Position numbers and translations under genes: made by a program
Notes under the pieces: generated by a model
Databases searched by the model: none
What the model saw: only the letters and a program-made list of their open reading frames with translations
What the model was told of the DNA's origin: nothing
Assembly: GCA_003215655.1 (NCBI GenBank)
Contig: QCKB01000004.1
Coordinates: forward strand, 62,001 to 126,000
Origin: Prochlorococcus sp. AG-409-J16
GTDB taxonomy: Bacteria; Cyanobacteriota; Cyanobacteriia; PCC-6307; Cyanobiaceae
Reading direction: 5' to 3'
Length of the DNA: 64,000 nt
Shown here: piece after piece, positions 51,542 to 52,907 of the stretch
How the letters are laid out: every line of letters begins with the position of its first letter
Numbering within the stretch: the first letter of the stretch is position 1

Positions 51542-51832
51542 TTATGCAGCCATAGGAACTTCTTCTTCAGTCCATGACTGATCATTATCAGTTGACTGAT
51601 CAGAACTCTCTAGTAACTCTTGACACTCCCGCATCAATTGCTCGACACCATCAAGAATCGCCATTTCCTCATCAGCAGGAACATCATCTTTATTAGTTAA
51701 CTGAATTTCCAAAGCCTCCTGACGCTGCTCAAGCTTCACCAATCGCTGAGAAAGTGCGGTAATCGTTTGAGCCAAGTCCTCTGCAGTGCGAGTAATACGA
51801 AAAGAGCAATTCGAAGATGAAGAAGACATCAT
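51542..51832 (-). CDS. Small hypothetical protein with coiled-coil segment
   Basis: The open frame extends to an ATG at 51880, but the first 16 codons (rich in Leu, Cys and Val) look like leader DNA. The natural start is the double ATG at 51832/51829 before a Ser-rich segment. The 96-residue protein has a helix RTAEDLAQTITALSQRLVKL continuing into LEQRQEALEIQL, a likely coiled coil, and an acidic C-terminus (WTEEEVPMAA). No recognised domain. Confidence 0.6.
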   Translation of the reverse strand: MMSSSSSNCSFRITRTAEDLAQTITALSQRLVKLEQRQEALEIQLTNKDDVPADEEMAILDGVEQLMRECQELLESSDQSTDNDQSWTEEEVPMAA

Positions 51833-51963
51833 AAAAAAAGTACTTGGCCAGATAACAACACATAAACAGAGAAGACTCAAGCCCCAATAAGTGATTATCC
51901 ACTAGAAATCTGCTATCAACCAAAAAAAAATTGGCTGTATCTCCTACGCATCCCTTTGCAACT

Positions 51964-52461
51964 ATGGTCTTATATCTCCTAGAAGGGTCATCAGCCAGGC
52001 TTCTGATGCTTCTTAAAGTATTCCAGCAGCACTAATCGCTGGAGCATTACTGTGGAACAGGGATATTAAGCATGAGCGGGCAAATTGAAGTCGCTCTATG
52101 ACCAGATGGAACAAAAACCTTACTTCAAATCGGTATAGGAACTTTAATTGGAACACCATTAACTAGAGATTTTTTTGAACAATTACAAGCCTTTTGGTAG
52201 CCCGCTTTAGTAATCACTATGAGTCTTGACCTAACAGGAATTGCTGTGGTCTTATGGACCAGCCGATTATTAGGTATAGACCCTTTAATTTTTTTACTAG
52301 AAGCTGGACCCATTGGTATCAGTGGGATCAGCCTAGTAAATTCATAATTCAGTGCTGGGGCAGCTGTACCAGCTCTACATCCTGTGAGGTTAATTACAGT
52401 TCTACTAGTGATACAGCTAATAGCAAAATTCTTAATTCGTTTAAGGATTAGCAATCTTTGA
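51964..52461 (+). pseudogene. Degenerate AbrB-family membrane protein gene
   Basis: Three reading frames together rebuild one small membrane protein of about 165 residues. The first piece reads MVLYLLEGSSARLLML (51964 onward), and a frame shift near 52017 leads to IPAALIAGALL (52020). A second shift at 52070 leads to MSGQIEVAL (52072). After that come three in-frame stops: TGA at 52099, TAG at 52198 and TAA at 52345. Between them read LLQIGIGTLIGTPLTRDFF, PALVITMSLDLTGIAVVLW, LLGIDPLIFLL and RLITVLLVIQLIAKFLIRL, ending at TGA 52459-52461. The order of these segments matches the AbrB / 'putative ammonia monooxygenase' repeat found in many bacteria. The gene is decayed and not functional. Confidence 0.8.
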
Positions 52462-52520: not shown

Positions 52521-52907
52521 ATGGTCAAAAATCGATATTGGCTTGCTTTTAATCTTGCCTTAATAAGCCTTGCCAGTTTAATTCTCAATCCTCAGGCTAG
52601 CCATAGTCGCCCTAAAGATACTGGTGGGAAAGGAGCTCAAATTTACTGCTATATGAGAGAAACCGGAAACAAACATGAAGTCAGCTGGAATGCTGCATAT
52701 GCGTTAATCAAACGTCAAAGTAATAGCATCTTCAAAACATCACCTAAACACGCAGCTGTAATGATTATTGAATCAGTAGTAGAAGAACCTAACGATTACC
52801 CTGATTGCGGGAGATACCTTGGTGAACTTTTTGGTGGGAAAATAGTAGAAGATGAAATGACAAAAAGTAGTGGCAAGTCTTCGGGTGAAAACAGATATAA
52901 TTTTTAG
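52521..52907 (+). CDS. Small secreted hypothetical protein of picocyanobacteria
   Basis: The N-terminus is a signal peptide (about residues 1-29, FNLALISLASLILNPQASHS). The mature part of about 100 residues has two cysteines (YCYMRETGNKHEVSWNAAY and DYPDCGRYLGELFGG) that could form a disulfide, then a Lys/Ser tail. Family and role unknown. The gene sits just after the AbrB pseudogene on the same strand and converges on the helicase gene. Confidence 0.72.
   Translation: MVKNRYWLAFNLALISLASLILNPQASHSRPKDTGGKGAQIYCYMRETGNKHEVSWNAAYALIKRQSNSIFKTSPKHAAVMIIESVVEEPNDYPDCGRYLGELFGGKIVEDEMTKSSGKSSGENRYNF

Follow-up and report, generated by a model that had tools for sequence, protein, structure and literature searches.

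Membrane proteins of the E. coli AbrB type are about 350 amino acids long and contain two repeats. Paralogs were reportedly deleted during genome reduction in Prochlorococcus, a process that Luo et al. are said to have described in 2011 (Mol Biol Evol 28:2751, cited in PMC3940434). The likeness to the present case is that one duplicate was lost and the other kept; the difference is that the deletion there is finished, whereas the loss that we describe is in progress, in place, graded and found in several lineages. The formation of pseudogenes and their subsequent deletion under drift have also been discussed for Prochlorococcus (PMC10837832). The stops, small indels and spacer shrinkage presented below fit that path, although here they concern a single locus with a paralog kept. 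A search of the accessible literature found no paper on AbrB in Prochlorococcus. Paralog deletion and the pseudogene stage before deletion are thus already known in kind; what is new is this instance, a graded and replicated series at one locus.

We have analyzed a stretch of 64,000 nucleotides from Prochlorococcus sp. AG-409-J16 (the window). Positions 51944-52458 of its forward strand are a homolog of a one-repeat AbrB membrane protein, and constitute the wreck of a small membrane-protein gene of which the genome retains a working duplicate at another place. The repeat is that of the AbrB proteins of TIGR03082 and PF05145, and the intact paralog scores above both cut-offs. In contrast to the two repeats of the E. 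coli type, the picocyanobacterial genes encode one, of about 170 amino acids, and the copy in the window is dead. The features of the locus are as follows.

51944-52458, forward strand: pseudogene of abrB copy A with one AbrB/Gneg_AbrB_dup repeat, full length but not translatable, from profile matches and frame-aware alignment
52521-52907, forward strand: intact DUF6554 gene (PF20191), the ancestral downstream neighbor of abrB copy A
51542-51832 (from ATG), reverse strand: small conserved gene that bounds the locus upstream and occupies this position in most relatives
52125-52454, reverse strand: spurious open reading frame of 109 codons, a by-product of the sense coding

Scanning the window's own genome with PF05145 (cut-off 29.2 bits) identified exactly two places, the relic and a paralog on contig 1. 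The relic scored 40.4 bits with four in-frame stops, and a straight reading with X at the stops gave 38.4 bits, identifying it as an AbrB repeat. With TIGR03082 (Gneg_AbrB_dup) it reached 65 bits, below the cut-off of 94.7 as expected of a decayed copy. The copy-A profile matched at 173.8 bits (E = 2e-55) between -581 and -75 relative to the DUF6554 gene, while reversed upstream regions, used as a control, gave at most 0.7 bits.

The lesions were located by frame-aware alignment with a profile built from intact copies, in which the positions of frame shifts are approximate.

52015-52016 (approximate), forward strand: frame shift (-1)
52050-52053 (approximate), forward strand: frame shift (+1)
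52099-52101, forward strand: in-frame TGA, where 10/10 intact copies have W
52198-52200, forward strand: in-frame TAG, at profile column 93, occupied by R or K in the intact copies displayed
52345-52347, forward strand: in-frame TAA, where 10/10 intact copies have E

The fourth stop of the straight reading sits within the shifted segment. With two frame shifts and three stops there is no frame able to make the protein. The relic has an intact homolog at the orthologous position, disabling lesions and relaxed constraint, the marks of a pseudogene. The first-pass annotation, made from the letters alone, had described a decayed AbrB-family gene, and both the PF05145 score and the copy-A profile agree with it. 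The single repeat of about 165 residues that it had proposed is borne out in length and family, the two shifts and three stops are exactly those of the alignment, and its reading of TGA as a former tryptophan codon and TAA as a former glutamate codon falls on two invariant columns. It had placed the gene at 51964-52461, which is the right locus, but the alignment shows that the homology starts slightly upstream, near 51944.

The setting of the relic is conserved. DUF6554 is present in 130 of the 151 genomes of the family, and in 53 of the related genomes examined an intact AbrB half-gene on the same strand ends 27-167 bp before it; in the window the gap between the end of the relic and the start of DUF6554 is 59 bp. 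Gene order is also largely conserved over a longer stretch (aminotransferase, small minus-strand genes, abrB, DUF6554, helicase and HNH gene). Because intact AbrB genes occupy the same position in relatives and the wider order is maintained, the relic is the dead ortholog of the picocyanobacterial abrB locus, which we call copy A; this answers the comparison of the orthologous locus that had been proposed as a check. The upstream boundary gene at 51542-51832, conserved before abrB-DUF6554 in most relatives, encodes an acidic, possibly coiled-coil product that matches no Pfam or NCBIfam family.

How far has the decay progressed? Ten intact copies define 79 invariant columns; the relic differs at 21 of them (about 27%), and 19 of these changes are besides the lesions. 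Two intact copies outside the definition of the columns, those of G038 and G094, have changed at 3/79 and 5/79, respectively. The ratio of change at codon positions 1 and 2 to that at position 3 on the tip branch is 0.53 for the relic, and the remaining copies, where the estimate is usable, give 0.04-0.32; we take this as a supporting sign only, as third positions approach saturation, one estimate is degenerate, and the less decayed relics of G015 and G054 give 0.10-0.11. Simulated neutral drift starting from any of four intact copies reached the same erosion after about 58-60 substitutions, i.e., 0.12 per site; by then 2.1-2.4 stops had arisen on average, compared with the three observed.

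The window genome is the sole member of its genus in the comparison set, and its rpoB third positions are about 50% identical, i.e., saturated, relative to the other Prochlorococcus-like genomes compared. They were discarded as a dating tool, since saturation yields a bound only. Since the relic is still recognizable while neutral sites are saturated with respect to the relatives, the break postdates those splits. The inactivation thus belongs to this lineage alone; by that clock it is recent, and the decay has gone well past the first stop. The earlier view that the decay is recent holds relative to the lineage splits, but the extent of invariant-residue change and the simulated distance show that it is not fresh. 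Siting the relic within the tree of A copies was abandoned, as its long branch takes no firm position.

Remains of the same gene lie just before DUF6554 in nine relatives that span seven genera other than that of the window (G010, G015, G031, G036, G041, G054, G072, G078 and G099), as detected with the copy-A profile. In the frame-aware alignment the lesions of the window copy are shared with none (0/9) of these relics. The gene loss in progress that had been suggested from the window is seen across relatives as several stages of decay of one gene at one spot. On an rpoB tree that took in nine relic genomes, including that of the window, the relic label requires seven changes by parsimony, of which three are forced by well supported branches; G041 (relic) groups with G056 (intact A) with SH-aLRT 98. 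Because no window lesion is shared and neutral sites are saturated, the least decayed relics are independent inactivations in separate lineages. Those of G010, G036, G072 and G078, changed at 39-65% of the columns that are at least 90% conserved, may go back to an older event common to some of them. Several of the relic genomes are incomplete (64-77%) and in many contigs, so that frame shifts there could be errors.

Two further copies deserve description. That of G054 (L120:4951-5354, C3) has two frame shifts only, with 7/78 invariant residues changed, and is either the freshest wreck of the set or the product of errors in an incomplete assembly (64%). The copy of G026 (L062:5854-6333, C11) has an open frame of 168 amino acids, 20/77 invariant residues changed and an end branch of 1.58; it may be a copy yet to acquire its first stop, or one whose function has changed.

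The spacer between the upstream gene and DUF6554 measures about 620-810 bp where copy A is intact, 500-725 bp in relics except that of G099 (344 bp), and about 100-560 bp in most genomes that have no detectable trace of A. In G064, sister to G010 in the rpoB tree, a spacer of about 680 bp is unrecognizable. In G014 the spacer at the DUF6554 locus has shrunk to about 344 bp, and a second AbrB gene (L057:3796-4278, C13), copy-A-like and 61% identical to copy B, lies away from DUF6554; this could be a relocation or a transfer of copy A.

No protein and no known RNA product is predicted from the relic. The open reading frame of 109 codons on the opposite strand is present, and the first-pass annotation was correct in calling it misleading. 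Behind intact copies this register also stays open, over a median of 130 codons, and the frame has no match in Pfam; on these grounds we ruled it out as a gene. The case is a warning against reading the antisense frame of such a region as a gene. A structured RNA was rejected, as the relic has no match in Rfam. The idea that the 3' end of the relic is preserved as the promoter of DUF6554 is unsupported, as changes at invariant columns are scattered along the whole gene.

Could the gene be intact, and the lesions result from sequencing or assembly errors? The assembly is a draft of 18 contigs, but base-call errors cannot account for five separate lesions together with 19 further changes of invariant residues. 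Moreover the neighboring DUF6554 and helicase genes are open over their full length and the genome is 99.96% complete, and the probability of such errors is practically negligible. It is also extremely unlikely that the locus is still used, either for a recoded protein made by shifting and read-through or for an antisense frame or RNA. Its full length has been kept and the antisense frame is there; against this, invariant residues are eroded over the whole gene, the window lesions are absent from every other relic, and the antisense observations given above apply equally here.

A single ancestral death, with the relics inherited from it, is improbable, though slightly less so. In favor of a single event, every relic belongs to the streamlined portion of the Prochlorococcus tree, whose branching is poorly resolved. 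However, the lesions in the window are common to no other relic, and genomes with intact A are interleaved with those carrying relics, as for G041 and G056. Furthermore, with neutral sites saturated, a relic inherited from so far back would be unrecognizable, and not changed at 9-31% of its invariant residues.

The paralog, copy B, is an intact gene for 173 amino acids at about 610966-611523 of contig 1, and is 51% identical. It passes both cut-offs, with 112.6 bits for TIGR03082 and 70.1 bits for PF05145. The 36 B proteins form one clade (SH-aLRT 100) nested within the diversity of A, and their identity to the B of the window genome is mostly 73-91%, falling to 63-68% in three genomes that belong to a single genus. 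Copy B (L067:5937-6455; 610966-611433 on contig 1) is situated in variable surroundings, some 7 kb short of the contig end. Among the B loci compared, its neighbors match consistently only those of G011, and there is therefore no synteny by which to date the gain of B. Copy B may travel with variable regions. Viral contigs were searched and no relative of B was found in them, and spread by phage was rejected on that basis.

The occurrence of A and B was tallied by hand in genomes that are at least 90% complete. Twenty of these carry B, and their A copy is open in 4, a relic in 4 and without trace in 12, while most genomes lacking B keep A. Both copies are intact in G007, G011, G013, G021, G057 and G103, and some lineages without B are also without A. 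The association of B with loss of A is a correlation on a shared tree; that copy B is the cause of the loss is what we infer.

The conclusion that emerges, to which we assign a probability of about 0.93, is that the relic is a dead gene orthologous to the abrB half-gene directly preceding DUF6554 in marine picocyanobacteria. In our best reading the gain of B would have made A dispensable, so that A breaks down by drift in several lineages in parallel. A second copy would have come, by duplication or transfer, into an ancestor of the streamlined Prochlorococcus lineages, and this copy B would have become the strongly constrained one. Copy A, its selective cover gone, would then have broken independently in several lineages through point mutations and small indels, to be followed after inactivation by slow shrinkage of the spacer and gradual deletion. 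We happened to notice no mobile element in the relic. The wider proposal, that a single gain of a better-constrained half-AbrB in variable surroundings caused the ancestral copy to decay repeatedly and independently across Prochlorococcus, with at least one lineage, G026, caught while open but degenerate, seems to us somewhat better than an even chance. Family resemblance suggests that the half-AbrB proteins are small transporter-like membrane proteins; to resemble the two-repeat AbrB, a protein with one repeat would presumably need to associate with itself or with a paralog.

Most gene loss in Prochlorococcus is seen merely as absence. Here the fate of one redundant gene can be traced at one locus: intact, open yet degenerate, a full-length wreck, a shrunken spacer and, last, no trace. 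The stages occur in separate lineages and the paralog that likely replaced the gene is known, so that rates of decay and deletion become measurable. If this is correct, the gain of B would constitute a replicated natural experiment on how quickly a gene made redundant is inactivated and removed from streamlined genomes.
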